Source: Deltaproteobacteria bacterium
Lineage (GTDB): Bacteria > Desulfobacterota > GWC2-55-46 > UBA9637
Length of the DNA: 36,088 bases
Reading direction: 5' to 3'
NCBI GenBank assembly: GCA_016219285.1
Contig: JACRNJ010000010.1
Coordinates: 1-36,088 of the forward strand
Position numbers and translations under genes: made by a program. Position 1 is the first letter of the stretch; each line of letters starts with the position of its first letter. This document shows positions 2 through 16,122 of this stretch, piece by piece. The notes below the pieces were generated by a model. That model saw nothing but the letters and a program-made list of their open reading frames with translations. It was not told the DNA's origin and did no database searches.

Positions 2-217
2 ATAAAGAAGAGGCATACAATAGAGGCTGTAAAATCTATAAAGCAGATAACAAGAAAGGAATACCTGAGAGGTAAAATAGAGTCATTAAGGAACCCTCAC
101 CTATTCAGGGTCTGGGATGGTTACAGATGCCCTATCTGCGGGGAAAGATTCAAAGACATTATTTCCTTTAGACAGCATGTTGAGAAGTATGGCGTTACCA
201 TGGCATTTGCAGGCTAA
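2..217 (+). CDS. C-terminal part of an unrecognised protein with a CxxC zinc-binding-like motif
   Basis: An open frame enters from the left edge and stops at 215-217, giving 71 residues. It is Lys/Arg-rich at first and then contains CPICGERF followed by FRQHVEKYG. The Cys-x2-Cys with a His 13 residues later resembles the first three ligands of a C2H2 zinc finger, but the expected second His is missing. I do not recognise the family and the N-terminus lies outside the window. No function is proposed. Confidence 0.5.
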   Translation: MKKRHTIEAVKSIKQITRKEYLRGKIESLRNPHLFRVWDGYRCPICGERFKDIISFRQHVEKYGVTMAFAG

Positions 218-423: not shown

Positions 424-1185
424 ATGAAGAAGTTTCTACGCAGCATAATAATAACAGGCTTCGTCTTCATTCTGGGGATAAGTATTAGTTATGCCTATGA
501 TGAGATAGAGGTAAAGGATGGTGGGCAGATAATTGGCCATGTGAAATTTACCGGCAATCCGCCTAAGCTTGCCCCTATCAAGGTGAATAAGAACCAGGAT
601 ATTTGCGGGGATGAAAAGGCATCTGAGGCATTGGTTGTCGGCAAGGATGGGGCTGTAAGGTTTGCGGTAGGGTATCTGGAGAATATAGAGAAGGGGAAGA
701 AGATAGAAAGGCAGAAGCAGACTGACCTTGATCAGAAAAAATGTCTCTTTGCCCCGCATGTCATTACCGTGGTTAAAGGTACAGAACTGGCTATAATCAA
801 CTCTGACCCGGTTCTCCATAATATCAATATAGAGGTGGAAGGCATCCAGAGATTGAATAAGGGTCAGCCAAAGCAGAATCAGGTGGTTGTTGGAAAGTTG
901 AGACATGTGGGTCAGGGAAATATTACCTGTGATTCCCACACACATATGAGGGGCTATGTGCATATATTTGAACACCCCTATAAGGCTGTGTCAGATGATA
1001 CAGGGAGCTTTGTTATTGATAATATTCCGCCTGGGAAATATACCCTAAAGGTGTGGCACGAGTCATGGAAGGTGACAGGCCTTGATGATGACGGAAGACC
1101 GCTTTATGACAAACCTATACTTCTCACAAAAGAAGTGGATGTCCCTGCAAAGGGGATTGTGCACGCTAATTTTGAATTGAAGTAA
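424..1185 (+). CDS. Exported cupredoxin (plastocyanin-like) protein
   Basis: 253 residues; start at 424 chosen because AAGGAGG lies at 411-417, while the longer TTG frame from 364 has no such site. Residues 1-24 are a signal peptide ending SYA. A GGQIIGHVKFTG strand at 33-44 resembles a carboxypeptidase-regulatory-like beta sandwich. The cupredoxin part (about 108-185) has the type 1 copper set His132, Cys169, His172 and Met175 (CDSHTHM). A further beta-sandwich segment, GSFVIDNIPPGKYTL, follows. It is probably a periplasmic electron carrier or copper carrier. Its position just ahead of a multicopper oxidase suggests they are redox partners (inference). The exact partner is unknown. Confidence 0.8.
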   Translation: MKKFLRSIIITGFVFILGISISYAYDEIEVKDGGQIIGHVKFTGNPPKLAPIKVNKNQDICGDEKASEALVVGKDGAVRFAVGYLENIEKGKKIERQKQTDLDQKKCLFAPHVITVVKGTELAIINSDPVLHNINIEVEGIQRLNKGQPKQNQVVVGKLRHVGQGNITCDSHTHMRGYVHIFEHPYKAVSDDTGSFVIDNIPPGKYTLKVWHESWKVTGLDDDGRPLYDKPILLTKEVDVPAKGIVHANFELK

Positions 1186-1190
1186 AAAAT

Positions 1191-1264
1191 GTAGTTTGCC
1201 CGACCCAACCTTCGGTTGGGTGCCTCGTGGGCATTTTAAAGATGCTGATAAATCAGCAAGCTAC
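1191..1264 (+). repeat. Cloverleaf-like structured repeat, copy 1
   Basis: 74 nt between the cupredoxin and the oxidase gene. The ends gtagtttgc and gcaagctac pair with one wobble and enclose three hairpins: 1204-1220 (cccaacc/ggttggg), 1221-1233 (tgcc/ggca) and 1243-1258 (tgctgat/atcagca). It is a diverged copy of the elements at 10320-10395 and 12941-13016, with paired substitutions that keep the stems. It lies about 10 bases before the Shine-Dalgarno of the next gene. Confidence 0.75.
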
Positions 1265-1286
1265 AAATAAAAAAGGAGGCGTTAAA

Positions 1287-2588
1287 ATGAAGAGATTATT
1301 ATTCTTGCTTGCCGCAGCGGCATTTTGCATGGGTTTTGCGGCAACGTCAGTGTGGGCATTGAAGCCGGGTCTGCCAGTTAAAGAGATAAGATTCCTGGTT
1401 GACGTCAGCAGCGTGGCTGTGGCTGAAAAGGCAGGTCATGCTAAGGTAATAAACAAGGTTGACGTCCAGACCAAGGGAGGCCAGTGGGCAGTAGGCCAGG
1501 CAAAAAAGCTTGGCGTAAAACTCTCAGGCAAGACCGTTGAGTATGATATAACTGCAGTTGAAGCCAAGCAGGATATTGCAGGTGTGGAATTCCCTGTATG
1601 GGCCTTTGTGCCAAGCAACAAGGTGAAGGGCGACAAGGTAGAGGGTTATAAAAACCCCCACGGTGTTGTCCCAGGTCCAACCATTATTGCTGATGAAGGG
1701 GATATTGTAAGGGTTATAATGAAGAACAGGAGCAAGAATAATCATACCATCCATATACATGGGCCGACGGTTATCGCGTATGACCACGATGGCACAATGA
1801 ATGTGGCGCAGGTTCCGGTGAAGATGGATCAGGAGTTTACATACGAGTTTGTGGCGTCTCCGGTCGGCACACATCTCTATCACTGTCATGTGAATGCCAA
1901 TGAGCATATGGATATGGGGCTTTACGGCTCTATCATCATCCACAGCAAGAATGAGGAAAAGGTTGATCAGGACCTCCTTGTTATGTTGGATGAGTGGGAC
2001 TCAAAATTTTCAATGGAAGAGGGTTTTGCCCCAACTACTGCTGAAGTTAAACAGAGCGCAGAGGTGGGTCATCCAAGGAATATTGCCCGTTATAACCTGT
2101 TTACCATCAATGGGAATGCATGGACAGATGAATACCCGAATGTCGTTGCTGCCCAACAGGGACAGAAGATAAGAGTAAGATTTATAAATATGGGTAGCTG
2201 GCCCCATAATATCCATCTTCACGGCCATACCCTTCACTGGGTGGCATGGGATGGACGGAATGTCCCTCCGTATAATAATAAGATATCGGATAATGATATG
2301 AGAAGCGATTCTGTCTCCATTCTCCCTGGTGAGAGAAAGGATTATATATTTGAGGCAAATCAGGATGGCAGATGGGTATGGCACTGCCACATTGTTGCGC
2401 ATGCCACCAATGACGGCGTTTATCATGGAGGTCTCCTGATGGCGGTAGTCTATCTGCATCCCAAAAAGGATGGTGTTGGGCCCTATGGCGGCGTTCTTGA
2501 TGGGAGCGGTATAGATTTGGATGCGTATCCGCTTGGCAAGCCTGTAAAGATAGGGGAAAAGCCATACGATGCAATATCATCCAAATGA
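1287..2588 (+). CDS. Two-domain multicopper oxidase
   Basis: 433 residues; ATG at 1287 follows AAGGAGG at 1272-1278. The signal peptide is about 1-24 (SVWA). Two cupredoxin domains are visible. Domain 1 has H153-TI-H156-I-H158, then H199-C200-H201, H207 and M210. Domain 2 has H307-NI-H310-L-H312, then H366-C367-H368 and H372. Both HxH and HCH pairs needed for a trinuclear cluster are present, and each domain keeps a type 1 Cys and His. Met is an axial ligand candidate only in domain 1. This fits the two-domain laccase/nitrite-reductase-like oxidases that work as trimers. The substrate cannot be told from sequence; metal or phenol oxidation with O2 reduction is the family expectation. It follows the cupredoxin gene in the same direction. 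Confidence 0.88.
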   Translation: MKRLLFLLAAAAFCMGFAATSVWALKPGLPVKEIRFLVDVSSVAVAEKAGHAKVINKVDVQTKGGQWAVGQAKKLGVKLSGKTVEYDITAVEAKQDIAGVEFPVWAFVPSNKVKGDKVEGYKNPHGVVPGPTIIADEGDIVRVIMKNRSKNNHTIHIHGPTVIAYDHDGTMNVAQVPVKMDQEFTYEFVASPVGTHLYHCHVNANEHMDMGLYGSIIIHSKNEEKVDQDLLVMLDEWDSKFSMEEGFAPTTAEVKQSAEVGHPRNIARYNLFTINGNAWTDEYPNVVAAQQGQKIRVRFINMGSWPHNIHLHGHTLHWVAWDGRNVPPYNNKISDNDMRSDSVSILPGERKDYIFEANQDGRWVWHCHIVAHATNDGVYHGGLLMAVVYLHPKKDGVGPYGGVLDGSGIDLDAYPLGKPVKIGEKPYDAISSK

Positions 2589-2668
2589 TGATGCGGCAAA
2601 GGCAGTGAAAAGTGCTGCAGAACTGTGACAATAGGTGTATGATTATTACAATTTATAGCAGGATTAAA

Positions 2669-2698
2669 CAGGAGGGCAGCCATGCCCTCCTGTTTTTC
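2669..2698 (+). terminator. Intrinsic terminator after the multicopper oxidase gene
   Basis: A perfect 10-bp stem, caggagggca (2669-2678) and tgccctcctg (2683-2692), has a 4-base loop and is followed by five T. It lies 80 bases after the oxidase stop codon and only 26 bases before the hemerythrin start. It should separate the two transcripts or attenuate read-through. Confidence 0.9.
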
Positions 2699-2723
2699 TT
2701 ATGACGGAAGGAGGTCTTATTAT

Positions 2724-3140
2724 ATGGCGTTTATGACATGGAATGATAATGAATTTAGCGTGAATATCAAACTGTTCGATACACATCATAAGAAACTCTT
2801 TGACCTTATAAACAGATTACACGATGCTATGAAACAGGGTAAGGCAAGGGATGTTTTAGCACAGATATTATCTGAGCTGATAGATTATACGGTCTACCAC
2901 TTCAAGGCAGAAGAAGAGTTGTTTCAAAAACATGGTTATCCTGAGTATGCTCAGCAGAAAAAGGAGCATAAGGAGTTGACAAAGACAGCTCTGGAGCTCA
3001 AGGCTAAATTTGATAAAGACCAGATTAGAACGGTGCTGACCATGGAAACCATGAAATTCTTAAAGGATTGGCTAAATAATCATATCTGTGAAACTGATAA
3101 AAAGTACACTAAGTTTCTGAATAGTAAGGGGGTTGTATGA
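2724..3140 (+). CDS. Bacteriohemerythrin-like protein with one altered iron ligand
   Basis: 138 residues; ATG at 2724 with AAGGAGG at 2708-2714. An upstream ATG at 2682 lies inside the terminator loop and was rejected. The four-helix hemerythrin pattern is clear: H22 (THHKKLFDLIN), H59 and E63 (HFKAEEE), H82 (KKEH), H120 and D125 (NNHICETD). The first His of the usual HxxxH pair after YPEY is Gln78 here, so one of the five His ligands of the di-iron site is missing. There is no signal peptide, so it is cytoplasmic. Family members bind O2, NO or sense oxygen. Its stop overlaps the next start by 4 bases, which ties it to the thioredoxin/cupredoxin operon. Confidence 0.88.
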   Translation: MAFMTWNDNEFSVNIKLFDTHHKKLFDLINRLHDAMKQGKARDVLAQILSELIDYTVYHFKAEEELFQKHGYPEYAQQKKEHKELTKTALELKAKFDKDQIRTVLTMETMKFLKDWLNNHICETDKKYTKFLNSKGVV

Positions 3141-3802
3141 GAAAAGTCAGGAGTCAGGAATCAGAAGTCAGAGGAAGTAAGCAGTATGCAGTATGCAGAA
3201 GGCGCTCTTTGTTAGGTTTGAAACCATATTTTTACTGCTTACTGCTTACTGCCTTCTGCTTACTGCATACTGTTTCTTACGCCACCGACCTTCCTATCAG
3301 AGGGATAGCGCGCGGCGAGCCTAAAGTCAAAGTCGGAGACAAGGCTCCGCTTGTTACATCTGAATTGGAAGATGCCAACAGGCAGGGAAAGGTCATTGCC
3401 CTGATGCTGGGTTATCAGAGCCATTGTCCCTGGTGTGACCGGATGGATAGATACATCCGTGTGATTATGAAAGATACAAATAATTTTGATAATCGCGTTG
3501 TTTTTATTTTGACACAGATAGAGCACGCAAAGATGATCGCCCCTCCGGATGAAGGGGTGAAATTGAAAGAGGCATTCGGTGTGGAAGGCCAGCCGTGGCT
3601 GTTTATTATAGACCAGACAGGCACGGTGCGATTTATCTATAAGATATTTGTTGGCAGCGACACATTTACAAGAAATATTAAGGAGTTGTTGGGAGAGGCA
3701 ACGGAAGGCCATGAGAAATCAAAGGAAGAGGAACTTAGTGAACAAGAGCAAAAGCAGCTCAAGAAACATAGAGAAGGAGGAGAGCATGGAAAACATGAAT
3801 AG
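3137..3802 (+). CDS. Exported thioredoxin-like protein (CPWC), repeat-built signal peptide
   Basis: 221 residues, starting in an ATGA overlap with the hemerythrin stop. The charged N-region (about 3-23) is encoded by GTCAGAA-type heptads. The hydrophobic core (YFYCLLLTAFCLLHTVSYA, 31-49) is encoded by TACTGCT-type heptads. The mature part is a thioredoxin fold with C97-PW-C100 and a likely cis-proline at P153 in GQPWLFIID. It ends in a charged His/Glu/Lys-rich tail (190-221). It is probably a periplasmic thiol-disulfide protein or copper-site metallochaperone partner for the neighbouring cupredoxins (inference). It is the first of four related paralogues in this operon. Confidence 0.8.
   Translation: MRKVRSQESEVRGSKQYAVCRRRSLLGLKPYFYCLLLTAFCLLHTVSYATDLPIRGIARGEPKVKVGDKAPLVTSELEDANRQGKVIALMLGYQSHCPWCDRMDRYIRVIMKDTNNFDNRVVFILTQIEHAKMIAPPDEGVKLKEAFGVEGQPWLFIIDQTGTVRFIYKIFVGSDTFTRNIKELLGEATEGHEKSKEEELSEQEQKQLKKHREGGEHGKHE
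3145..3274. repeat. Heptad repeat pair inside the CPWC thioredoxin gene
   Basis: The left arm (about 3145-3201) has GTCAGGA/GTCAGAA units and then AGTATGC units. The right arm (about 3230-3274) has TACTGCT-type units. Parts of the arms are complementary: agtatgcagaagg on the left matches ccttctgcttact on the right, allowing for substitutions. The whole block is in frame and encodes the signal peptide. Confidence 0.75.
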
Positions 3803-4373
3803 AGGACGGAAGTCAGAAATCAGAAGTCAGAAATCAGAAATCAGAAGTCAGAAGTCAGAAATCAGAAGTCAGAAGTCAGAAGCAAGAAGCAAGAAAAAAA
3901 TCTTCACCTCTTGCCTCTTGCCTCTTGCCTCTTGCCTCGTTTTTTCCTGCTTCCTGCTTACTGCATCTTACGCGGCACAGGAAATGTTAAAGACACAAAA
4001 GGTTAAAGTTGGAGAGAATGCGCCTCTCACAGAGATGCTTAAAAAGATAAATCAAGAGAAAAAGGTAATTGTGCTTACGCTCCTCCCAAATCCGATGGGG
4101 TGCAGACGTTGTGATTCGCTTGTAAACCTTCTTGAGAAGGAGACGGAAAAATATAAAGATAATTCCTCTTTTATTATGGCAGGCGGCCAGGATATGTTGG
4201 GCGCGGATCAAGAGACTCTGGAATTAAAAAGACTCTACGGCTTTGTCACCATGGGCGATGCGTGGACATTTATTATAGACAGGGAAGGGGTATTGAGAAA
4301 GATACTTATAGGACTTTTTACCGGAGAGGAATTAGAAGGGATACTGGATAATATTATAGGGAGGAAGGAATGA
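3786..4373 (+). CDS. Exported thioredoxin-like protein (CRRC) lacking the cis-proline
   Basis: 195 residues; ATG at 3786 with AAGGAGG at 3774-3780, overlapping the previous gene by 17 bases. Residues 8-36 are repeats of SEIRSQK encoded by twelve 7-bp units. The hydrophobic signal segment 41-63 (TSCLLPLASCLVFSCFLL and following) comes from CTCTTGC/TACTGCT-type heptads. The fold is the same as its neighbours, with C106-RR-C109. Where the others have G-[EQ]-P-W, this one has G-D-A-W (157-160), so the cis-proline next to the active site is absent. That could change redox behaviour or allow metal binding. It is likely periplasmic. Confidence 0.78.
   Translation: MENMNRGRKSEIRSQKSEIRSQKSEIRSQKSEARSKKKIFTSCLLPLASCLVFSCFLLTASYAAQEMLKTQKVKVGENAPLTEMLKKINQEKKVIVLTLLPNPMGCRRCDSLVNLLEKETEKYKDNSSFIMAGGQDMLGADQETLELKRLYGFVTMGDAWTFIIDREGVLRKILIGLFTGEELEGILDNIIGRKE
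3809..3966. repeat. Long heptad repeat array in the CRRC thioredoxin gene
   Basis: The left arm holds ten GTCAGAA/ATCAGAA units followed by two GCAAGAA units (about 3812-3895). The right arm holds CTCTTGC units (about 3907-3938), then CTGCTT-type units to about 3965. The gcaagaagcaagaa part is complementary to the ttgcctcttgcct part, so a hairpin can form. All of it is translated. Confidence 0.8.
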
Positions 4374-5443
4374 AGAAGACAATTACGATTTACGAATTAC
4401 GATTTACGAATTTAAAATCTAAAATCATTTTACTGCTTACTGCTTACTGCTTACTGCTTACCGTATCCTTTGCCTCTGCCGAGACAAGAGAGTTCACATT
4501 CACGGTAACTGAAGGAACAATCGAACTAAACGGCACAAAGTTTATGGTCTGGAAATATAATGATACATTTCCAGGTCCTGAGATAAGGGTAAAAGAAGGG
4601 GATATAGTAAAGGTTAAACTAAGAAACAAGAGTAGCGCAAAACACGGGATGTTTTTTCACGGGCTTTACGTTAATCCACGGGTCTCTATTCAGGAGCAGG
4701 AGATATTTGTTGACCCTGATTATGAATATACCTATGGCGAATTCATTGCAAAGCCTGCCGGAACCCACCTGTATCACTGCAGTTGGAATATGGCGGAACA
4801 CTTAAGCAGAGGCCTTTACGGCGCATTTATTGTGGAGGCAAAGAACGAGCCCAAGTATGATAAAGAATTTGTATATATCTTAAGCGACTGGAACAGCAAG
4901 ACTGAAAAAGGTGACGACCATCTTGGCGCAGGCCATCCCAGGTCAATGCTGGATAATGATATTACTACAATCAATGAAAGGGCTGTTACAGGAGATAATC
5001 CCATTGTTATGGAGGCAAAGAAGGGTGAAAGGATTAGAATGAGGCTTGCCAACATAGGTCACCTTCCTCATAAGATCAGATTTGCGGATGGTTTCCTTAT
5101 TACCCATGAGGATGGTTATCTCATCACTGAACCTAAAACACAGGATTCCATAACCATATACCCTGGAAAAAGGCACGATATTGTGATAACTGCCGGCAAT
5201 CCCGGTAAAATGACATTTTATCACAGTGTCAACATGCCCAAAAGCGCAGGCGAAAGATTGGCAGAGCTTGAGTCTCCAAACAAGCAAGCCGGCGAGCACA
5301 AACACGAACACCCAAAGGCTTCACATGACAGTTCTCATGATGAACATAAAACTGTCCACGAAAGTTTAGATGGTGGAAATGGTAAGAACAATGCAGCAAG
5401 AGAACTTCCTATACTTGTACTTGATATAAAAGGAGGGAAGTAG
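4370..5443 (+). CDS. Degenerate two-domain cupredoxin/oxidase with His-rich insert
   Basis: 357 residues, ATGA overlap with the previous stop. Residues 4-37 form a signal peptide whose N-region is ACGATTT/ACGAATT heptads and whose core (ILLLTAYCLLLTVSFA) is TACTGCT heptads. Domain 1 keeps H92, H97, H136, C137 and H144. The trinuclear pairs are broken: F95 replaces the HxH partner, S138 replaces the second His of HCH, and R147 replaces the axial Met. Domain 2 keeps H234 and H285 but has R237, A239, S286 and V287 at the other ligand positions. Seven His lie in 310-330, before a final strand at 345-353. It is closer in ligand pattern to NirK-like two-site proteins than to laccases. It may be an electron carrier or copper-storage protein. 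Activity is uncertain. Confidence 0.75.
   Translation: MKKTITIYELRFTNLKSKIILLLTAYCLLLTVSFASAETREFTFTVTEGTIELNGTKFMVWKYNDTFPGPEIRVKEGDIVKVKLRNKSSAKHGMFFHGLYVNPRVSIQEQEIFVDPDYEYTYGEFIAKPAGTHLYHCSWNMAEHLSRGLYGAFIVEAKNEPKYDKEFVYILSDWNSKTEKGDDHLGAGHPRSMLDNDITTINERAVTGDNPIVMEAKKGERIRMRLANIGHLPHKIRFADGFLITHEDGYLITEPKTQDSITIYPGKRHDIVITAGNPGKMTFYHSVNMPKSAGERLAELESPNKQAGEHKHEHPKASHDSSHDEHKTVHESLDGGNGKNNAARELPILVLDIKGGK
4380..4461. repeat. Heptad repeats encoding the signal peptide of the second oxidase-like gene
   Basis: ACGATTT/ACGAATT units (about 4385-4411) run into AAAATCT units and then four TACTGCT units (about 4431-4461). All are in frame. The first family supplies the charged N-region and the second the hydrophobic core. 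Confidence 0.75.
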
Positions 5444-6036
5444 TGATAAAAGTCAGAAGCCTGCCCCCGCAGGCTTTAAGCGGGGGTCAGAAGTCAGAAG
5501 CAAGAAGGCAATTACGAATTACGAATTACGATTTACGATTTATGAATTTAAAATCTAAAATCGTAAATCGTAAATCTCAAATCCTTTTACTACTTACTGT
5601 ATTTTTGATGCTCTATCCTGTTATTTCCCATGCTGTTTTACGCGGACTGCCTGAGGGCAAATCAAGGATAGAGGTAGGTGATAAGGCTCCACTGGATACC
5701 GCCGACCTTAAAAAGGCCAATGAAGAAGGCAAGGTCATCCTGCTCATGTTCGGCAATATAGATCACTGCATCTACTGCGAGAAGATGTGGGGTAATATCA
5801 GAGATATAATGCCGCAGTACAACAAAGATGCGGCTGCAATCCTAAAGACCCATCGCGCCTCCAAGTTTTGGGGACCAGAAGACGAGGCTGTGAAATTAGG
5901 AGAACGATACGGTGTTATTGGGGAGCCATGGCTTTTTATCATAGATAAGAAAGGCATTGTCCGGCATATCTTTATGGGGTTTACAGGCAGGACAGAGATT
6001 GAAAATGAGATAAAAAAGGCGCTGATGGACAAATAA
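5443..6036 (+). CDS. Exported thioredoxin-like protein (CIYC)
   Basis: 197 residues from a GTG at 5443 that overlaps the previous TAG by one base; AGGAGGG lies at 5431-5437. The N-terminal 45 residues come from repeat DNA: a GC-rich hairpin element at 5459-5486, GTCAGAA units and ACGAATT units. A hydrophobic segment (47-64, ending SHA) is the probable signal core. The mature part has C109-IY-C112, cis-Pro162 in GEPWLFIID and the shared start RGLPEGKSRIEVGDKAPLD. A shorter start is possible, but no better ribosome site is visible. It is likely a periplasmic redox protein. It is very similar to the next gene, so the pair looks like a tandem duplication. Confidence 0.8.
   Translation: MIKVRSLPPQALSGGQKSEARRQLRITNYDLRFMNLKSKIVNRKSQILLLLTVFLMLYPVISHAVLRGLPEGKSRIEVGDKAPLDTADLKKANEEGKVILLMFGNIDHCIYCEKMWGNIRDIMPQYNKDAAAILKTHRASKFWGPEDEAVKLGERYGVIGEPWLFIIDKKGIVRHIFMGFTGRTEIENEIKKALMDK
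5451..5598. repeat. Composite heptad block with nested GC-rich hairpin
   Basis: GTCAGAA units flank a GC-rich element at 5459-5486 with two competing stems: gcctgc/gcaggc and cccccgc/gcggggg. These are followed by ACGAATT/ACGATTT units (about 5511-5542) and the inverse AAATCGT units (about 5556-5577). The block lies entirely within the start of the CIYC thioredoxin gene. Confidence 0.75.
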
Positions 6037-6536
6037 TGTTAGTTCCATTGAGAAAATCCCTCCTTCTCATTGGTTGCTGCCTGTCCTTCTGGTATGCTCT
6101 GGATTTTCACCTTGTTTCTTATGGTGTAGTAAGAGGGGCGCCTGAGGGCAAATCAACGATTCAGGTTGGCGATAATGCCCCGTTAGACACCGATGATATC
6201 AGGAAAGCTCATAACGAGGGGAAAATTATTCTCCTGATGTTCGGCAATCCAGATCATTGCCGCTATTGCGAGAAGGTATGGTTCAATAGCCAAGAGATAG
6301 CATTCAAATATGAAAAAGATGTGGCATTTATAGCGAAAAGGCACCGTGCCGCTGAGTTTTGGGAACCGGAACCCGAAGCAGAGGCGCTGGCTAAACGATA
6401 CGGCATAGTCGGCGAACCGTGGCTCTTTCTCATAGATAAAAAGGGTGTTGTGCGGCATATCTTTGTTGGTTTTGCCGGTAAAACCGAGATTGAGGTTGAA
6501 GTAAAAAAAATGCTGGATGTGGCTAACCCTCATTAG
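6036..6536 (+). CDS. Exported thioredoxin-like protein (CRYC)
   Basis: 166 residues; ATG at 6036 overlaps the previous TAA by one base. The hydrophobic N-terminus (about 7-30) is an ordinary signal peptide, not built from heptads. The mature part starts VVRGAPEGKSTIQVGDNAPLD, has C75-RY-C78 and cis-Pro128 in GEPWLFLIDKKG. It is closely similar to the previous gene product throughout. That makes it useful as a reference copy whose N-terminus was not invaded by repeats. It is the last gene of the operon. Confidence 0.82.
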   Translation: MLVPLRKSLLLIGCCLSFWYALDFHLVSYGVVRGAPEGKSTIQVGDNAPLDTDDIRKAHNEGKIILLMFGNPDHCRYCEKVWFNSQEIAFKYEKDVAFIAKRHRAAEFWEPEPEAEALAKRYGIVGEPWLFLIDKKGVVRHIFVGFAGKTEIEVEVKKMLDVANPH

Positions 6537-6758: not shown

Positions 6759-7751
6759 TCACCCTCCAATAAAGCTCATCGTTCTGCTGCATTTTTTAAA
6801 GATATTATCGCTTATCTGATGTCTTTCTGGCTTCTTCTTTACGGCTCTAAATAAAAGTTCTTCAAGTTCCTTATCGGTGCAGCCATTTCGGAGTACCGTT
6901 TTAATATCTATCTCCTCATCAGAAAACAAGCATGTTCTGAGTTTTCCATCTGCTGTAAGCCTTAGCCTGTTGCATGATCTGCAAAAGTGGTCTGACACAG
7001 GGCTTATAAAACCTATTTCGCCTATGCTGTCTGTAAATTTGTATCTCCTTGCCGGACCTGTCCTCTTTTCAGGATTTCCAAGAGGAAGCAGTTTCTGAAA
7101 GCTGTTAATTTTCTCCATGATTTGAGAGGTTGAAATGCATTTGTCTTTATCCCAGACTGCCTCTACTTCAAATGGCATATATTCTATAAATCTTATATGA
7201 TAAGGTTTCTGTTTTGTCAGTAAGGCAAAATCTAAAATTTCATCATCATTAAATCCCTTTATTACCACGCAATTTACCTTTACAGGGTTTAAACCTGCCT
7301 TTTCCGCCTGTTCAAGCCCTTCCATAACATCGTTCATAAAATCCCCTCTGGTTATTTTATGAAACCTGTCTCTCCTTAAAGAATCTACGCTTACATTTAC
7401 CCGTGTAAGCCCAGCCTTTTTTAATGGATGCGCAAATTTTTTCAGGAGAACGCCGTTTGTTGTAAGGCTAATGTCTTCAACGTCATGGAGTTTTGACAGT
7501 TCTTCTATAAATTCAACAATGCCTTTTCGGACAAGGGGTTCTCCGCCGGTAATCCTTATTTTTGTTATGCCGTGCCTTACTGCAATAGTTGCAATCCTTA
7601 AGAATTCCTCATACCGCAGAATATTATTGGAATCCGTCAAAGGTATGCCGTCAGAAGGCATGCAGTAAACGCACCTTAAGTTGCATCGGTCTGTTACAGA
7701 TATTCTCAGGTAGTCTATAGGGCGGTTGTATGAATCTATGAGTTTTGTCAT
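6759..7751 (-). CDS. moaA: GTP 3',8-cyclase MoaA (molybdenum cofactor biosynthesis)
   Basis: 330 residues, the usual size. It is a radical SAM enzyme making (8S)-3',8-cyclo-7,8-dihydroguanosine 5'-triphosphate, the first step of molybdopterin synthesis. The N-terminal cluster motif is C23-NLR-C27-VY-C30, with GGEPL at 69-73. The second cluster ligands are C257, C260 and C274. The protein ends in the Gly-Gly typical of MoaA. It lies 31 bases after the penicillin-binding protein gene on the same strand, so the two are probably co-transcribed. No other moa genes are nearby. No strong Shine-Dalgarno is visible. Confidence 0.97.
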   Translation of the reverse strand: MTKLIDSYNRPIDYLRISVTDRCNLRCVYCMPSDGIPLTDSNNILRYEEFLRIATIAVRHGITKIRITGGEPLVRKGIVEFIEELSKLHDVEDISLTTNGVLLKKFAHPLKKAGLTRVNVSVDSLRRDRFHKITRGDFMNDVMEGLEQAEKAGLNPVKVNCVVIKGFNDDEILDFALLTKQKPYHIRFIEYMPFEVEAVWDKDKCISTSQIMEKINSFQKLLPLGNPEKRTGPARRYKFTDSIGEIGFISPVSDHFCRSCNRLRLTADGKLRTCLFSDEEIDIKTVLRNGCTDKELEELLFRAVKKKPERHQISDNIFKKCSRTMSFIGG

Positions 7752-7782
7752 ACTTTAATTACATATGCTATGAGGTGGATAG

Positions 7783-10245
7783 TTAATCCATCTCCTCATG
7801 CGCTGAATCATCAGCAGGGGGTTGTTTTTCTCCCTGTGGTTTAGCTATATCCATTTCAAAAAATCTTTCCGGAGCAGCAACTCTGTTGTATGCGGCAGTG
7901 TTTGCCGAATCTGTTGGCGCGGTTCCTTGTTTAAAGGCCTCAAATATCACATTTTCTGTTGTTGGTGTTGCAGGCGTGCCTGTTGTCTTGTCTATCTTGG
8001 TAAATACAACACCTTCCGGAGTTGGAAAACTTTTGACCGGTGTCCCGGCCGCTGCCTTTTGCATAAAGTTGAGCCATATTGGCAAAGCCGCCCTTGCGCC
8101 AGTCTCCATATAGCCTAGAGGCCTCTCATCATCATAGCCTATCCATGCGCCTGCGATGATGTCAGGAGTATAGCCTATAAACCATGCATCATTTAAATTA
8201 TTTGTAGTTCCTGTTTTGCCGGCAGCAGGTCTTCCAAGCGCCTTTGCCCGTTGTCCTGTCCCTTCTTGTATGACGCCTTGCAAAAGGTTAGTCATTATGA
8301 ATGCAGTCTGAGGGCTAAGTATTGTCTGCGTTACCGGAGACGCCTCCTCAAGGATATTACCTGCCTTATCCGTGATTTTTATTATGAATATTGGCTCTGT
8401 CTTTTGCCCCATATTTGCAAATGTGGAATAGGCGCTGGTCAGCTCCATCAAAGACAGGCTTGGCGAGCCTAATGCAAGTGAGAGGTCGTTATTCAATAGA
8501 GACTGGATGCCAAGCCTTCTTGCATACTCAATTGCATAGTTTACGCCAATATCCTGTAATATTTTTACTGTTACAACATTTCTGGAATGTGTTAAAGCCT
8601 GTCTGAATGTTGTTGGTCCGTAAAATTTTTCTTCAAAGTTCCTTGGCTTCCATTCTGTTTCCGTGTCAGTTTCATTTTGAGCATTTTTTACAGTTTCTTC
8701 AAAAATAATAGGTGAATCAACTATTACAGATGCAGCCGTGTAGCCCTTGTCCAGAGCGGCGGCATAGATAATTGGCTTAAATACGCTTCCTGGCTGCCGT
8801 TTTGCCTGCACAGCCCTGTTAAACTGGCTTTTTGTAAAATCAGATCCTCCTACCATAGCCTTTACATATCCTGTTGCAGGCTCCAGCGCAATCAAAGATG
8901 TCTGTGCAAACGGTTCCTGTTCTAAAGTGACAGAAAGCGGTTCAGAATCTGAAATTAGAGGTGTAACTGGGCTCGAAATGGCCTTTACAGACACCTTTAT
9001 GACATCGCCGTTTCGTATAGTGCGTGTAATGTCCTGATGTTTCCCTCCATCAGGCTCGTTAGTTGGGTTATATAATTTTGCCCATGCTGCATCTTCAAAT
9101 GAAAGTGCGGCTTTATAACTGCCAATGTTGACTAAAAAGTATTTTTCCTGAGTATTTACAGCAGTAACAATACCTTCATATATTTTTCCTGCCGCAGGTT
9201 GTTTGCCGTTCAAGTCAGCATTTACCTGTTCTAAAAATACATTTATATCTTCCTTTTTTACCAGTTTTTTTTCAGGCCCCCTATAGCCGCGCCTTCTGTC
9301 ATGCTCCTTTAAGCCGTAAGCCGCAGCTTGGTTGGCAGCCCGCTGAAGTTCTACGTCCAATGTTGTGTATACCTGGAGTCCGCCTCTGTAAAGAAAGTCT
9401 TCACCGTACTTTTCATCTATATATTTGCGGATATGCTCTGTAAAATATGGTCCCACCCATAAACTTCTTATCTCCTTAGGTTTAAGTTTGATAGAATAAT
9501 GTATTGCCCTTTCTTCTGCTTCCATTGTGATAGAACCCTCTTCCAACATCCTGCGGAGCACATACTCCTGCCGTTGTTTTGCTATTTCAGGAAAGTGATA
9601 TGGGGAATATTTGCTTGGCGCTTTTGGGAGGCCCGCCAATAATGCAGCCTCAGCCAGATTTAAATTTCCAACATCCTTGCCAAAATATGTTTCTGCCGCT
9701 GCCTGGACGCCGTAAGCGCCGCTTCCCAGATATATCTGATTCAGATAAAGATGGAGTATGTCATCTTTTGAAAGGCTTTTTTCTATTCTATAGGCTAATA
9801 GAGCTTCTTTTATCTTTCTTGCAAAACTTCGTTCGGGGGTAAGGAAAAAAGATTTTGCCAACTGTTGAGTAATAGTGCTTCCCCCCTGCACTACCCTGCC
9901 TGCTGTAATGTTTTTGTAAAATGCCCGCAGGATACTCCTGTAGTCTATGCCCTTGTGCTGGTAAAATTGGGCATCTTCAGCAGCCAGAAAAGCCTTTACA
10001 AGGTGAGCTGGAATCTTGGAGAATGGAACTACAATCCTTCTCTCTATATAAAACTCACCTATAACCTGCCCGTCGCTGGAATATACCTTTGTAATTATGT
10101 TGGGGTTATACTGCTGGAGCGAATTTAGCTGCGGCAGAGCGCTGGCAAAATAAAGATAGATGGCAAGTGGAAGCGCTCCAATTACAAAAATAACTATAGC
10201 AAACATCACTATAAGTTGTTTTTGTTTGTTTTTATTCTGTCTCAT
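7783..10245 (-). CDS. mrcA: Class A penicillin-binding protein (PBP1A type)
   Basis: 820 residues from the ATG at 10245; a TTG at 10281 would add 12 hydrophobic residues before the basic tail, which is less likely. A short basic tail precedes one membrane helix (about 11-36). The GT51 transglycosylase domain has the E90-DAQFYQHKGID motif and GGSTITQQLAK (121-131). An OB-like insert lies at about 325-445. The transpeptidase domain has S487-VFK490, SRN (554-556) and KTGT (677-680). It polymerises and cross-links peptidoglycan at the inner membrane. The C-terminal tail is Pro/Ala/Thr-rich and acidic. Confidence 0.95.
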   Translation of the reverse strand: MRQNKNKQKQLIVMFAIVIFVIGALPLAIYLYFASALPQLNSLQQYNPNIITKVYSSDGQVIGEFYIERRIVVPFSKIPAHLVKAFLAAEDAQFYQHKGIDYRSILRAFYKNITAGRVVQGGSTITQQLAKSFFLTPERSFARKIKEALLAYRIEKSLSKDDILHLYLNQIYLGSGAYGVQAAAETYFGKDVGNLNLAEAALLAGLPKAPSKYSPYHFPEIAKQRQEYVLRRMLEEGSITMEAEERAIHYSIKLKPKEIRSLWVGPYFTEHIRKYIDEKYGEDFLYRGGLQVYTTLDVELQRAANQAAAYGLKEHDRRRGYRGPEKKLVKKEDINVFLEQVNADLNGKQPAAGKIYEGIVTAVNTQEKYFLVNIGSYKAALSFEDAAWAKLYNPTNEPDGGKHQDITRTIRNGDVIKVSVKAISSPVTPLISDSEPLSVTLEQEPFAQTSLIALEPATGYVKAMVGGSDFTKSQFNRAVQAKRQPGSVFKPIIYAAALDKGYTAASVIVDSPIIFEETVKNAQNETDTETEWKPRNFEEKFYGPTTFRQALTHSRNVVTVKILQDIGVNYAIEYARRLGIQSLLNNDLSLALGSPSLSLMELTSAYSTFANMGQKTEPIFIIKITDKAGNILEEASPVTQTILSPQTAFIMTNLLQGVIQEGTGQRAKALGRPAAGKTGTTNNLNDAWFIGYTPDIIAGAWIGYDDERPLGYMETGARAALPIWLNFMQKAAAGTPVKSFPTPEGVVFTKIDKTTGTPATPTTENVIFEAFKQGTAPTDSANTAAYNRVAAPERFFEMDIAKPQGEKQPPADDSAHEEMD

Positions 10246-10293
10246 GAAAAAAATAATAACAAAAAAGACAAGATAAGGCAAGGGCTTGATAAT

Positions 10294-10416
10294 CTAGTGG
10301 ACGACAAAAATAAGTAGATGTAGTTTGCCCGACCCAACCTTCTGTTGGGCGCCCCATGGGCGTATTTTAAAATCGCCGATAAATCGGCAGACTACAAACT
10401 TGTGTCGCTGACTATA
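10294..10416 (+). repeat. Structured inverted repeat, copy 2 (with cloverleaf core)
   Basis: About 123 bp between the divergent PBP1A and PAP2-glycosyltransferase genes. The outer ends tagtggacgac and gtcgctgacta are imperfect inverted repeats. The core at 10320-10395 has end pairing gtagtttgcc/ggcagactac enclosing three hairpins. It matches copy 3 at 12920-13043 in the opposite orientation, with only about seven differences. There is no coding capacity beyond chance frames. Confidence 0.85.
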
Positions 10417-10515
10417 AAATCCCAAAGGCATTAAACCGCTTAGCTTGATTTTTATATTGGCCCCATGTATTCTTACTGGAAAACACACCAGACATATCCA
10501 AGGAGGATATTTTAT

Positions 10516-12777
10516 TTGCAAAGTCACATTGAAAAGAAACCTATTGTTTTTATATTGCTATCACTTGCATTAATCTTATTTAGCTTACAGATGGACACTT
10601 TCTTAGATATGTTTCATGGGACAACATTTGGCAGCTTGGCACAATTTTTCAGCATAGTTGGTGATGGAATAACCCTTGCAGGGATATGTATCTTTCTCTT
10701 TGTGTTAGGGATTATATCAAAAAAAGAATATGTCCGTATCAGTGGCATGTATGGCTTGATGGCTCTTTTGGTGTCAAGCTTTTTCCTACATCTATTTAAG
10801 ATAGCCTTTGAGAGATCAAGGCCTAACTTTAGCAATACAGACATCCTTTTCTTTCTGGAGAATCCATCCATATTTGATTTTACCGGGAGATTTAATTCGT
10901 TTCCGTCGGGCCATACAACCGTATCGTTTGCCATTGCATATACACTATCAAAGTCATTCCCGCGGTTATCTCCAATATTTTATATCACAGCGACAATGGT
11001 TGGCCTTTCCAGAATATATATCAGCTCTCACTATCCATCAGATGTGGCAGGCGGGGCGATAATAGGAATATTGGTCAGCATGTTTTTATTTAGCGGGGTC
11101 AAAAAACAATGGAAGGCAGGGTTTTTTTTCAGCATTGCGGTATTTCTATCATTTTTTAAGTTGGGCGGCCTTCTGCTCTTTGATACAGATGAAGCCGCAT
11201 ATTCGGCGGCAACAAGAGAGATGCTTGAAACCGGCAATTACATTACGCCAACTTTCAATTATGAACCGTTCTACGATAAACCTATCCTTTTTTACTGGCT
11301 TCAGGCTGTTGTCTTTAAACTCTTTGGTGTAGGAGAGTTTTCTGCAAGGTCTGTCTCCGCCTTATTTGGAGTCGGTCTTTTGGCGATCACCTTCTTTTTT
11401 GTAAAGCGGCTTTATGGGCAAAGGGCAGGAATCCTTGCAGGTATGTGTCTCCTGGTAAATTTAGAATTTTTTGTTTACACCCATGCTGCAGTTTTAGATA
11501 TGCTGTTAACTTTCTTTATAACAGCAGCTCTTTATAGTTTTTATCTCGGATTGCAGCAAAACAGGCCAGTGCTTGAGCGCCTTCCTCAAGGGGATAACCC
11601 TTCACATCTTGTATCTCAAACCCCGCATGGCAATTATTGGTATTTCTTGTCGTGGGTTTTTGCCGCTATGGCGGCTTTAACAAAAGGCGTAATAGGCATA
11701 CTCTTTCCGGCAATGATTATCTTCCTCTATCTTATAGCGGTGAAGGAATTACGAGAAATGAGAAAGCTGTTGACCCCAAAATGTGTGCTCATATTTTTAG
11801 CAATCGCCTCTCCCTGGTATATAGCCCAGATTTCTATAAACGGATGGGAATTCTTCGATGCATTTGTAATAAAGCACCATTTTAAAAGATATACCGGAGT
11901 TATTACAGGGCAGAGCGGTCCCCTATATTATTATGTGGCAGTTATGCTTATCGGTTTTTTCCCATGGGTTGCCTTTCTGCCCAATGCCCTTTACAAGGGG
12001 TTTAAGGAAAAGGGGATATATCTCTTCGGCGTAGTTTGGTTCCTGGCAATTTTCATTTTTTTCTCTCTTGCCGGAACAAAGGAACCCAGCTATATCCTGC
12101 CTTTGTTTCCGATAACGGCAATTACAACCGGTCTTATCATAAATGACCTCATGGAAAAAAAGATGACGAAGATATGGTTATACATATCCGCCGGTTTTCT
12201 TATCATTGTTTCTCTGATAATGGCAGTGATGTATTTTGCTGTTCCGGCAATAATATCCTCATTTCTGCAAAAAGAACTAACAGTCGGTGTAATATTTCCT
12301 CCCCCTCTCTTTTTCTGGGGAGCGGGTGTATCCTGCCTCATAGTTGCAATGCTGGGTATTGCTATGATAAGGAAGCAGCATATTTTTATTGTGGGAGGTA
12401 TGGCCGCAGCTACTATTGTATTGCTTATATTTATAAGGGTGTATGCTGCGCCGTTTGTCAATATCTATATGCAAAAAACGATTTATAAATATTCTACCTA
12501 TGCCGGAAAGAATTTAGGAACAGAAGGAACGCTTGCAACCTATGAGATAAATCAACCGAGTATAGCCTTCTATAGCAGGAAAAAATTCCTTAAACTTGAG
12601 GGTGAGGGAGGACTAAAAGAACTTGCGCTCTTGGGAAGCTCTGATAAAGGCGCTTTGGTGATAACAAAGAAAAAATATATAGACAAACTGCAAGAAAGGA
12701 ATAGTTGGATGCTGATAGCTACAGACGGCAAATATGCAATCCTGGCGAACAAGCTGATACCGCAAAATGGCTTTTAA
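10516..12777 (+). CDS. PAP2 phosphatase-ArnT-like glycosyltransferase fusion
   Basis: 753 residues from a TTG at 10516 that follows AAGGAGG (10500-10506) by 9 bases; an ATG at 10465 has no such site. The first part is a membrane PAP2 phosphatase: K95...R102-P, PSGH (130-133), S165-R166...H172...D176. The second part is a PMT/ArnT-type (GT83/GT39) multi-span glycosyltransferase that begins with D223-TDE and continues with about ten more hydrophobic helices and a soluble C-terminal part. Such enzymes use undecaprenyl-linked sugars. A phosphatase joined to one suggests coupled lipid A or cell-envelope modification (inference). The gene is flanked by inverted copies of a 124-bp repeat. Confidence 0.88.
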   Translation: MQSHIEKKPIVFILLSLALILFSLQMDTFLDMFHGTTFGSLAQFFSIVGDGITLAGICIFLFVLGIISKKEYVRISGMYGLMALLVSSFFLHLFKIAFERSRPNFSNTDILFFLENPSIFDFTGRFNSFPSGHTTVSFAIAYTLSKSFPRLSPIFYITATMVGLSRIYISSHYPSDVAGGAIIGILVSMFLFSGVKKQWKAGFFFSIAVFLSFFKLGGLLLFDTDEAAYSAATREMLETGNYITPTFNYEPFYDKPILFYWLQAVVFKLFGVGEFSARSVSALFGVGLLAITFFFVKRLYGQRAGILAGMCLLVNLEFFVYTHAAVLDMLLTFFITAALYSFYLGLQQNRPVLERLPQGDNPSHLVSQTPHGNYWYFLSWVFAAMAALTKGVIGILFPAMIIFLYLIAVKELREMRKLLTPKCVLIFLAIASPWYIAQISINGWEFFDAFVIKHHFKRYTGVITGQSGPLYYYVAVMLIGFFPWVAFLPNALYKGFKEKGIYLFGVVWFLAIFIFFSLAGTKEPSYILPLFPITAITTGLIINDLMEKKMTKIWLYISAGFLIIVSLIMAVMYFAVPAIISSFLQKELTVGVIFPPPLFFWGAGVSCLIVAMLGIAMIRKQHIFIVGGMAAATIVLLIFIRVYAAPFVNIYMQKTIYKYSTYAGKNLGTEGTLATYEINQPSIAFYSRKKFLKLEGEGGLKELALLGSSDKGALVITKKKYIDKLQERNSWMLIATDGKYAILANKLIPQNGF

Positions 12778-12919
12778 TGGTAAAGGCTTTAATCAAACAC
12801 TTGAAACTTTAATCGTTTCCTAATAAGATTGCAACATTCCATTAGATATATTCTGATTGCAGGCGGTATACTCGGAAGACTTGAAATTTGATAAGATTAA
12901 TAGAAGAAAGCGCAAACCA

Positions 12920-13043
12920 TATAGGCAACGACATAAATTTGTAGTCTGCCGATTTATCGGCGGTTTTAAAATACGCCCATGGGGCGCCCAACAGAAGGTT
13001 GGGTCGGGCAAACTACAGCTACTTATTTTTGTCGTCCACTATA
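12920..13043 (-). repeat. Structured inverted repeat, copy 3 (with cloverleaf core)
   Basis: 124 bp with imperfect ends tataggcaacgac and gtcgtccactata; the core is 12941-13016. Read on the minus strand it is nearly identical to copy 2. It fills most of the 293-bp gap between the fusion gene and pilB, and ends 27 bases before the pilB start. The rest of the gap (12778-12919) shows only a weak gaaac/gtttc hairpin near 12805-12821. Confidence 0.85.
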
Positions 13044-13070
13044 GCATAACATCCACGAGGCGCGGCATAT

Positions 13071-14768
13071 ATGGCTGACAGACTTGGCGACCTATTGGTT
13101 AGAGAAAAACTGATAACTGCCGAACAGCTTAAAAAAGCTGTGGAGAAGCAACGTTCGTCAGGCGGGCGGCTTGGGTATAATCTTTCCAAGCTGGGCTATA
13201 TAAGTGAAAAAGACCTCACAACGTTTTTAAGCAGACAGTACGGCATCCCTTCGGTAGACCTTGCTAGCGCAGAAATAGACCCGGAAGTGATGAAACTTAT
13301 ACCAGAGGGTGTTGCCAATAAATATCAGGTCATTCCTATCAGCAGGACAGGTTCTACATTAGTCGTAGCTATGGCTGATCCATCCAACGTCTTTGTTATA
13401 GACGATATAAAATTTCTCACAGGATATAATGTTGAATCACGGATTGCCTCTGATGCCTCCATAAGAACTGCTATAGAAAAGCATTATGCGTCACAAGAGG
13501 CAGAGATGGATATTGGCGATGTCATGACAGAATTTGATGAAGTGGAGGTTATTCATGATGAGGAGAAAGTTGATGTATCTGATCTTAAGAAAGATGTTGA
13601 AGATGCGCCGGTTGTCAAATTGGTAAACATTATTTTGACTGATGCAATTAAGCGGGGGGCTAGTGACATACATGTAGAGCCGTATGAAAAGTCGTTCAGG
13701 GTAAGATACAGGGTTGACGGTGTTCTTTCAGAGGTTATGAAACCGCCTATAAAACTTAAAAATGCCATTGTGTCCAGAATAAAGATCATGTCTAATCTTG
13801 ATATTGCGGAAAGGCGGCTTCCTCAAGACGGAAGGATAAAAATGAAGCTTGGCAAGGATAAGGAGATGGACTACCGCGTTTCTGTCCTGCCGACGCTTTT
13901 CGGAGAGAAGGTTGTTATGAGACTCTTGGATAAATCCATGCTTCAGCTTGATATGACAAAACTTGGTTTTGAAGATAAGGCATTAAAGGATTTTAAAGAC
14001 GCTATTGAAAAACCATGGGGTATGGTCCTTGTTACAGGCCAGACAGGAAGCGGCAAGACAACAACGCTTTATTCGGCTCTTTCGGAATTGAATAAGGTTT
14101 CTGACAATATCTCTACTGCTGAAGACCCTGTAGAATTCAATTTCGCAGGCATAAACCAGGTTCAGATGCATGATGCAATCGGTTTGAATTTTGCCAGCAC
14201 ACTGCGGTCATTCCTGAGGCAGGATCCGGATATAATAATGGTGGGAGAGATTAGGGATTTTGAAACAGCCGAGATAGCTGTTAAGGCAGCGCTTACAGGC
14301 CATCTGGTTCTTTCTACACTGCATACAAATGATGCCCCATCCACGGTAAACAGGCTTTTAAACATGGGTATAGAACCTTTCCTTATTGCTTCAGCTACAA
14401 ATCTTATTTTGGCTCAGAGGCTTGCAAGAAAGATATGCAAAGATTGCAAGGAGGAAGTGTATATATCGCCGCAGGCCTTGATAGATATTGGCGTTATACC
14501 TGAAGAGGCAAGGTCTTTAAAATGTTTCCATGGCAAGGGCTGCGCAACATGCGGCGGCAGCGGCTATAAAGGAAGGATAGCGCTTTATGAAGTTATGCCG
14601 TTTACAGACGGCCTGAAGGAGCTTGTGCTTAATGGCGCATCTTCTGCTGAATTGAAGAGGGGCGCTATAAAGGAAGGCATGAAAACCTTGAGGATGAGCG
14701 GGATTACAAAGATGAAGCAAGGCGTAATCACGATAGAGGAAGTGGTAAGGGCAACAATGGCGGATTAG
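13071..14768 (+). CDS. pilB: Type IV pilus assembly ATPase PilB
   Basis: 565 residues, typical of PilB/GspE. It is the cytoplasmic hexameric motor that drives pilin polymerisation. A T2SSE N-terminal domain (about 1-140) precedes the ATPase domain. Walker A is GQTGSGKT (323-330). DPDIIMVGEIRD (385-396) covers Walker B, and the His box is at 417-420. The zinc-binding cysteines are C456, C459, C491 and C494. It is the first gene of the pil block. No clear Shine-Dalgarno is seen apart from a weak GAGG about 15 bases upstream. Confidence 0.96.
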   Translation: MADRLGDLLVREKLITAEQLKKAVEKQRSSGGRLGYNLSKLGYISEKDLTTFLSRQYGIPSVDLASAEIDPEVMKLIPEGVANKYQVIPISRTGSTLVVAMADPSNVFVIDDIKFLTGYNVESRIASDASIRTAIEKHYASQEAEMDIGDVMTEFDEVEVIHDEEKVDVSDLKKDVEDAPVVKLVNIILTDAIKRGASDIHVEPYEKSFRVRYRVDGVLSEVMKPPIKLKNAIVSRIKIMSNLDIAERRLPQDGRIKMKLGKDKEMDYRVSVLPTLFGEKVVMRLLDKSMLQLDMTKLGFEDKALKDFKDAIEKPWGMVLVTGQTGSGKTTTLYSALSELNKVSDNISTAEDPVEFNFAGINQVQMHDAIGLNFASTLRSFLRQDPDIIMVGEIRDFETAEIAVKAALTGHLVLSTLHTNDAPSTVNRLLNMGIEPFLIASATNLILAQRLARKICKDCKEEVYISPQALIDIGVIPEEARSLKCFHGKGCATCGGSGYKGRIALYEVMPFTDGLKELVLNGASSAELKRGAIKEGMKTLRMSGITKMKQGVITIEEVVRATMAD

Positions 14769-14914
14769 CGGCCGTGAACCGTGACCGTGTTCCGTGTCCG
14801 TAGTCTTTACGGTCACGGATAACGGGTACGAACAACGGTATTCATAAGGAGCCATTATGAATTTACGAATTACGATTTAAAATCTGAAATCGTAAATCTA
14901 CAATCGTAAATCTT
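14768..14914. repeat. Two heptad families between pilB and pilT
   Basis: CCGTGAA/CCGTGAC-like units (about 14772-14801) pair with an inverse acggtcacgg arm (about 14809-14819). A second block, ACGAATT/ACGATTT (about 14863-14880), pairs with AAATCGT units (about 14887-14910). Confidence 0.7.
14857..14880 (+). other. Orphan ribosome site and 7-codon frame ahead of pilT
   Basis: AAGGAG at 14846-14851 precedes an ATG at 14857 by five bases. The frame (MNLRITI) runs straight into the ACGAATT heptad block and stops at 14878-14880. It is in the pilT frame. It looks like a former pilT start cut off by repeat insertion, or a tiny leader peptide. Confidence 0.5.
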
Positions 14915-14928
14915 TCATGGGAGATACA

Positions 14929-16047: not shown

Positions 16048-16114
16048 AATTTACGAATTACGATTTACGAATTGCGATTTTAAAATCTCAAATCTAAAAT
16101 CGTAAATCTAAAAT
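16047..16114. repeat. Heptad block between pilT and pilC
   Basis: ACGAATT/ACGATTT units (about 16051-16080) are followed by the inverse AAATCTC/AAATCGT units (about 16083-16111). The pilC start is only about 10 bases further, with no Shine-Dalgarno between. Confidence 0.75.
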
Positions 16115-16122
16115 TAAAAACT

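Follow-up and report, generated by a model that had tools for sequence, protein, structure and literature searches.

A gene cluster of a two-domain multicopper oxidase, cupredoxins and thioredoxin-like proteins, and its cytochrome bd-like neighbors in related genomes

Composition and conservation of the cluster

What is the function of a gene row in which cupredoxins, a multicopper oxidase (MCO), a hemerythrin and four thioredoxin-like proteins are encoded together, and does such a row constitute a genuine unit? The question is raised by positions 424-6536 of a 36,088-nucleotide stretch of contig JACRNJ010000010.1 from a Deltaproteobacteria bacterium (assembly GCA_016219285.1; the whole stretch is hereafter called the window), where an initial annotation, made from the DNA alone, had reported a combination that it did not recognize. 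By following the row through related genomes, we found that it is rare but coherent and clustered beyond chance. We tentatively favor the interpretation that it constitutes a periplasmic module for copper-based electron transfer and O2 reduction, attached to a cytochrome bd-like respiratory complex.

The eight open reading frames (ORFs) of the initial annotation were recovered at the same coordinates, all on the plus strand, and its domain types were correct, i.e. cupredoxin, MCO, bacteriohemerythrin and thioredoxin-like proteins with the motifs CPWC, CRRC, CIYC and CRYC. Its picture of one continuous operon holds from the hemerythrin gene (Hr) onward, where successive genes overlap end to start (Hr/TrxA by 4 bp, TrxA/TrxB by 17 bp, TrxB/MCO2 by 4 bp, and MCO2/TrxC and TrxC/TrxD by 1 bp each), but the row is broken after MCO1 by a hairpin. 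The features are as follows.

2..217, plus strand: zinc-finger-like protein (CPICGERF..H), C-terminal part only, the gene being truncated by the contig end
424..1185, plus strand: Cup1, exported cupredoxin with one type-1 copper site and a C-terminal immunoglobulin-like domain
1287..2588, plus strand: MCO1, exported two-domain MCO, type A by sequence (type-1 ligands in both domains, complete trinuclear site)
2666..2695, plus strand: terminator-like hairpin 3' of MCO1, 13 bp stem and T-rich tail
2724..3140, plus strand: Hr, single-domain bacteriohemerythrin without signal peptide, cytoplasmic, optional (listed ORF start 2682)
3137..3802, plus strand: TrxA, exported thioredoxin-like protein, CPWC
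3786..4373, plus strand: TrxB, exported thioredoxin-like protein, CRRC, part of one ORF with MCO2 in some relatives
4370..5443, plus strand: MCO2, exported two-domain cupredoxin with a type-1 copper site in domain 1 only
5443..6036, plus strand: TrxC, exported thioredoxin-like protein, CIYC
6036..6536, plus strand: TrxD, exported thioredoxin-like protein, CRYC, a TrxC paralogue, optional

The order Cup1-MCO1-TrxA-TrxB-MCO2-TrxC is kept in about 18 genomes, with some losses and contig breaks, so that homologs scattered among relatives with no conserved clustering were not what we encountered. Sixteen loci were identified in a genome scan with MCO1, and further loci came from relatives. The records with the cluster are named Nitrospirae, Nitrospinota, Deltaproteobacteria and Rokubacteria, and nearly all of them are labelled as groundwater metagenomes. 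A search with the mature TrxC domain gave 22 matches in seven out of 41 relatives, every one of them inside the cluster, and these seven genomes are the same that have MCO1 or, in G008, the end of MCO2 at a contig edge (Fisher test for co-occurrence, 4e-8 over the 41 relatives, with shared ancestry uncorrected). Across the phylum, sampled evenly with 395 genomes, close relatives of TrxC were found only in the window genome (G000) and G008, and close relatives of MCO1 only in G000 and G160. Full-length TrxC also gave tblastn matches elsewhere in G000, but these proved to be N-terminal repeat sequence and not thioredoxins.

Two further observations concern the loci as such. In the genome bin JACROQ01 the MCO1-TrxA sequence occurs on two different contigs (L042 and L052), which suggests that the cluster is duplicated in this genome or that the bin mixes strains. 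Several genomes carry a short intergenic repeat (about AAACCTAAAGGTTTGAGCTACGGGTGTAACCCAAGGCTTTAGCCTTGAGGG) 5' of the bd-like gene, Cup1 or MCO1, e.g. at positions 316-367 of the window and at L083:2106-2161, L022:2945-2989 and L024:1939-1999.

Copper sites, thioredoxin-like proteins and the hairpin

In MCO1 the copper ligands are complete. The type-1 His-Cys-His sets of both domains (H173, C220 and H227; H327, C387 and H392) are invariant in 17 out of 17 aligned sequences, the ligand alignment as a whole comprising 17-18 sequences, and so are the eight trinuclear histidines (H176, H178, H219, H221, H330, H332, H386 and H388) with their motifs HIH, HCH, HLH and HCH. The initial annotation of a full multicopper oxidase is thus borne out as far as the ligands are concerned, although the protein has two domains and is not a classical three-domain MCO. 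Two-domain MCOs with copper in both domains have been defined as type A (PMC13151041), and with type-1 ligands in both domains MCO1 falls by sequence into that class. Its best PDB matches, 2zwn and 3g5w, are both two-domain MCOs; at the position aligned with their domain-1 axial Met, MCO1 lacks Met and has Leu. Curated models were tried for two other identities. The copper-resistance oxidases CopA and CueO were rejected for scores far under the cut-offs (92 of 479 and 37.5 of 525 bits, respectively), as was copper nitrite reductase, for which MCO1 and MCO2 score 45 and 62 bits against a TIGR02376 cut-off of 296.

Cup1 is identified by Pfam and NCBIfam as a cupredoxin-like protein with a carboxypeptidase-regulatory-like C-terminal domain. 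In its AlphaFold2 (AF2) model (predicted local distance difference test, pLDDT, 92.6) the cupredoxin domain matches pseudoazurin, amicyanin and plastocyanin folds. The candidate type-1 ligands H152, C189, H192/H194 and M195 (numbered from the ORF start at 364) are invariant in all 14 sequences, and the same applies to an additional, non-ligand cysteine pair, C81/C127.

The second MCO-like protein, MCO2, retains the type-1 ligands H92, C137 and H144 of domain 1 in 13 out of 13 sequences, while most of the trinuclear ligands are lost in all orthologs. The earlier description of a degenerate two-domain cupredoxin is therefore apt, and MCO2 should not be able to reduce O2 alone. At four loci (L043, L045, L049 and L052) TrxB and MCO2 form a single ORF, which supports a physical or functional partnership between the two.

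All the Trx proteins carry hydrophobic, signal-like N-termini and are predicted to be exported. TrxC and TrxD, and more weakly TrxA, are detected as thioredoxin-like by Pfam; TrxB falls under detection, yet it is clearly paralogous. The CxxC motif is invariant within each group, i.e. in 15 out of 15 TrxA sequences (together with a preceding His), 15 out of 15 TrxB and 13 out of 13 TrxC. The AF2 model of TrxC (pLDDT 89.7) has a TlpA/ResA-like fold, with Foldseek matches to ResA, DsbE/CcmG and related oxidoreductases, and none of the Trx proteins reaches the cut-off of the curated ResA, DsbE or DsbH models.

The starts of several exported genes contain seven-base tandem repeats (AGAAGTC.., TTACTGC.., AATTACG..) that form hairpins (window 3137-3290, 3786-3990, 4370-4475, 5443-5640 and 29633-29790; L069, L070 and L071). 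When translated, one arm reads RSQKSEV or ITNYELRITNLKSKIVNRKSQ, and the other constitutes the hydrophobic LLTAYCLLLT core of a signal peptide. The cassette is shared by at least three further genes of the window genome, as if a mobile repeat had supplied signal peptides.

A hairpin 3' of MCO1 was found in 14 out of 18 loci (p < 0.05 each against shuffled sequences), compared with 0-3 of 13-14 after other genes. These hairpins are comparable across the loci, with partly different sequences. They separate the probable main enzymes, Cup1 and MCO1, from the probable helpers, and their conservation suggests that Cup1-MCO1 transcripts would be more abundant than the downstream ones. In the window, the listed ATG of Hr (2682) falls within the hairpin, so the likely start is the alternative ATG at 2724, which is situated behind GGAAGGAGG.

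Hr itself is a bacteriohemerythrin (NF033749, 154 bits; cut-off 84), but it occurs at few loci and in varying positions, namely in the window, L021 (two copies), L022, L046 and L049. This sporadic occurrence rules it out as a core member, and a dedicated di-iron sensor therefore does not define the system. A protein of another O2-binding di-iron family, ODP, overlaps TrxD in L022, and one is possibly present also at L038.

Respiratory neighbors and possible functions

The genomic context in relatives is what connects the cluster to respiration. In L042, L046 and L025 it lies 3' of genes for a cytochrome bd-like protein, two c-type cytochromes and a diheme EB_dh cytochrome, a unit often accompanied by universal stress (Usp) and zinc-finger proteins, and in L037, L048 and L049 EB_dh cytochromes are situated immediately 5' of Cup1. 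An Rrf2 regulator is found at five loci: three times it opens the bd-like unit (G032, G421 and G424), in L050 it lies 5' of Cup1, and in L024 it lies 3' of TrxC. Three of these regulator sequences were examined, and all of them share three conserved cysteines. Directly 3' of TrxC in G010 there is a cbb3 oxidase operon, consisting of ccoN, O, P and G together with a copper ATPase. The more distant loci L029, L030 and L031 have a full and a degenerate MCO around diheme and monoheme cytochromes c, which suggests electron transfer from cytochrome to copper. Two genes of L029 (C15/C16), considered as candidates for nitrite oxidoreductase (NXR), turned out to encode a PD-(D/E)XK nuclease and a UvrD-like helicase.

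Together, these data would fit a system in which Cup1 and small cytochromes c exchange electrons with the bd-like complex and the c-type and EB_dh cytochromes that belong to it. MCO1 would take up electrons at a type-1 copper site and reduce O2 to water at the trinuclear site, and MCO2, with its type-1 site only, may be a partner in electron relay or assembly. TrxA-D would act as dedicated thiol-disulfide proteins of the TlpA/ResA type, keeping copper-ligand, Cup1 disulfide or heme-binding cysteines reduced during maturation, and the hairpin would hold the level of these helpers under that of Cup1 and MCO1. Periplasmic copper-site assembly and electron transfer, one of the two functions proposed initially, is thereby the better supported one, considering the complete ligands of MCO1 and Cup1, the predicted export of the Trx proteins, their TlpA/ResA-like fold and restriction to the cluster, the TrxB-MCO2 fusion and the conserved hairpin. 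As regards the other proposal, O2/NO handling, the O2 part is favored by the context, i.e. the bd-like oxidase, the cbb3 operon in one genome and the hemerythrin/ODP-family proteins, while nitric oxide (NO) is retained because of the associated Rrf2 regulator with its three cysteines.

Several points weigh against the respiratory interpretation. Clear COX1-family genes are present in five out of seven relatives with the cluster, which thus is not simply a substitute oxidase, although the respiratory interpretation is favored by G032 (97% complete), where no gene of this family was detected, and by G000 (99% complete), which has one low-scoring partial match only. The bd-like gene was not found at E <= 1e-40 in G422, G426 and G429, genomes whose completeness is not established, and the link may therefore not be universal. 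Nor is it visible in the window genome, where the contig ends. The window starts inside the zinc-finger gene, meaning that the locus lacks its upstream part, and a 90% identical DNA copy of this gene elsewhere in the genome (G000:C32, L083:1181-1372) points to an assembly break, probably at the repeat; contig breaks in this genome fall at repeated zinc-finger and bd-like genes. A homolog of the zinc-finger gene is located immediately 5' of Cup1 at L022:1450-1812. Finally, MCO1 could oxidize a metal or a small molecule.

This last point leads to the foremost rival, which we consider unlikely: that MCO1 is a metallo-oxidase or detoxifying oxidase, acting on Mn(II), Fe(II) or Cu(I) or in defense against reactive oxygen, while Cup1 and MCO2 serve to chaperone or buffer copper and the respiratory neighbors are incidental. 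Fe(II) oxidation is possible for two-domain MCOs (PMC13151041), the MCO near NXR in Nitrospina and Nitrospira has been suggested to serve in an Mn(III)-based defense against oxygen radicals (PMC3578206), and the groundwater habitat would suit such a role. However, the CopA and CueO scores given above argue against it, and neither Trx proteins of its own nor the constant presence of c-type cytochromes next to it would be expected for a stand-alone metallo-oxidase.

The Rrf2 genes could instead indicate a nitrogen-oxide system, in which MCO1 and MCO2 would reduce or sense nitrite or NO under an NsrR-like regulator, as a side branch of NXR or nitrate reductase respiration. The conserved cysteines of Rrf2 are in line with this, as are the bd-like modules adjoining NXR/Nar-like genes in L087 and L126 and the sub-threshold match of MCO2 to the copper nitrite reductase model. 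We nevertheless regard it as improbable, since both proteins fail the cut-off of that model, MCO1 has a full trinuclear site of the kind typical of O2 reduction, and NXR does not adjoin the cluster in L025 or L042.

Similarly improbable is a bolder proposal, according to which MCO1, MCO2 and the Trx proteins would form a copper-driven, thiol-oxidizing folding system with O2 as the final acceptor; in a wider version, they would constitute a new, all-copper terminal oxidase of the periplasm, based on the conserved type A two-domain MCO and equipped with its own thioredoxin assembly line.

One end of contig C27 in the window genome (L081, G000:C27:34000-50434) suggested yet another possibility. 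Among the products encoded at its positions 6948-16203, the AioA/IdrA-like enzyme scores 403 bits (cut-off 359) and the AioB/IdrB-like Rieske protein 135 bits (cut-off 96); the others are a cupredoxin, two MauG-like diheme proteins, a HEAT protein and a diheme cytochrome. The start of a bd-like gene follows immediately, and in L086 (G008) the same order goes on through bd-like, cytochrome, EB_dh and Usp genes. The content, i.e. IdrA/AioA, Rieske and two diheme peroxidase-like genes, matches that of idrABP1P2, regarded as diagnostic of iodate reducers (PMC8692401), whereas the order differs. That the MCO cluster is part of such an iodate-reductase-like respiratory island, lying just upstream in the window genome, is nonetheless quite improbable. 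G000, G007, G008, G009 and G010 have both the cluster and IdrA-like genes, but none of the latter was found in G004, G032 and 10 out of 11 further cluster-bearing genomes, G002, G003 and G013 have the gene without the cluster, and no contig joins the two. As a general partner, the Idr operon is ruled out by its absence from most cluster-bearing genomes.

The narrower proposal of copper-driven oxidative protein folding, with the Trx proteins as disulfide donors re-oxidized by MCO2/MCO1 and O2 as the final acceptor of thiol electrons, would accord with the TrxB-MCO2 fusion, the several Trx proteins per MCO pair, the occurrence of this Trx family only with the MCOs and the downhill transfer of electrons from thiols to type-1 Cu(II), but reductants such as ResA and CcmG are among the fold matches, and we consider it very improbable.

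Comparison with known systems

A search of the open-access literature gave no published operon, characterized or otherwise, with the same gene content. The closest published counterpart to the respiratory module favored here is the NXR-linked cluster of Nitrospina gracilis, Nitrospira defluvii and Kuenenia, which includes a bd-like oxidase, cytochromes c (mono- and diheme in Nitrospina and Nitrospira), a zinc-finger protein and cupredoxins, with an MCO in the first two (PMC3578206). The bd-like complex with c-type and EB_dh cytochromes near our cluster is of the kind known from the vicinity of NXR in Nitrospina and Nitrospira, and the bd-like gene and cytochromes c adjoin the cluster in L025, L042 and L046. 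The published neighborhood, in contrast, carries NXR, and its description includes neither thioredoxins nor an MCO pair; here, NXR subunits do not adjoin, and it is Rrf2, not NXR, that heads the unit in G032 and G421. The Nitrospina/Nitrospira MCO, compared with MCO1 by description only, has been likened to the Mn oxidase of Bacillus SG-1 (PMC3578206). A resemblance to nitrite oxidizers was seen at a separate locus, L087 (G008:C72:1-12801), where NarG/NXR-like, NXR beta-like, EB_dh, TorD-like and 16-heme cytochrome genes lie directly 5' of a bd-like module, an arrangement that resembles their NXR neighborhood.

Comparable bd-like complexes, among them the terminal-oxidase complex TO_1, are also known from Ca. 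Manganitrophus, whose family members encode two novel MCOs (PMC9040806). These MCOs are likened to ours by description only, and the main text of that study mentions no thioredoxin, cupredoxin or hemerythrin.

On the level of single proteins, MCO1 has two cupredoxin domains, trinuclear ligands and domain-1 type-1 ligands in common with the Nitrosomonas blue copper oxidase (3g5w) and a metagenomic two-domain laccase (2zwn). Apart from the axial Leu, it differs from them in having an N-terminal extension and, in domain 2, HCHxxxH with an additional Cys in place of HDHxxxH. The Trx proteins have the exported thioredoxin fold with CxxC in common with TlpA, ResA and CcmG, but are set apart by their CPWC, CRRC, CIYC and CRYC motifs, their scores under the cut-offs and the dedication of several paralogs to one cluster.

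The cluster is thus, as far as we have searched, a previously undescribed variant of the bd-like respiratory neighborhood, centered on a type A two-domain MCO and dedicated thioredoxins. Type A MCOs are a defined class for which we found no dedicated study, and a natural, conserved family in a respiratory context would make them directly testable. Moreover, the bd-like complexes known from Nitrospira, Nitrospina and the manganese oxidizers thereby acquire genetic partners, a regulator and helpers.

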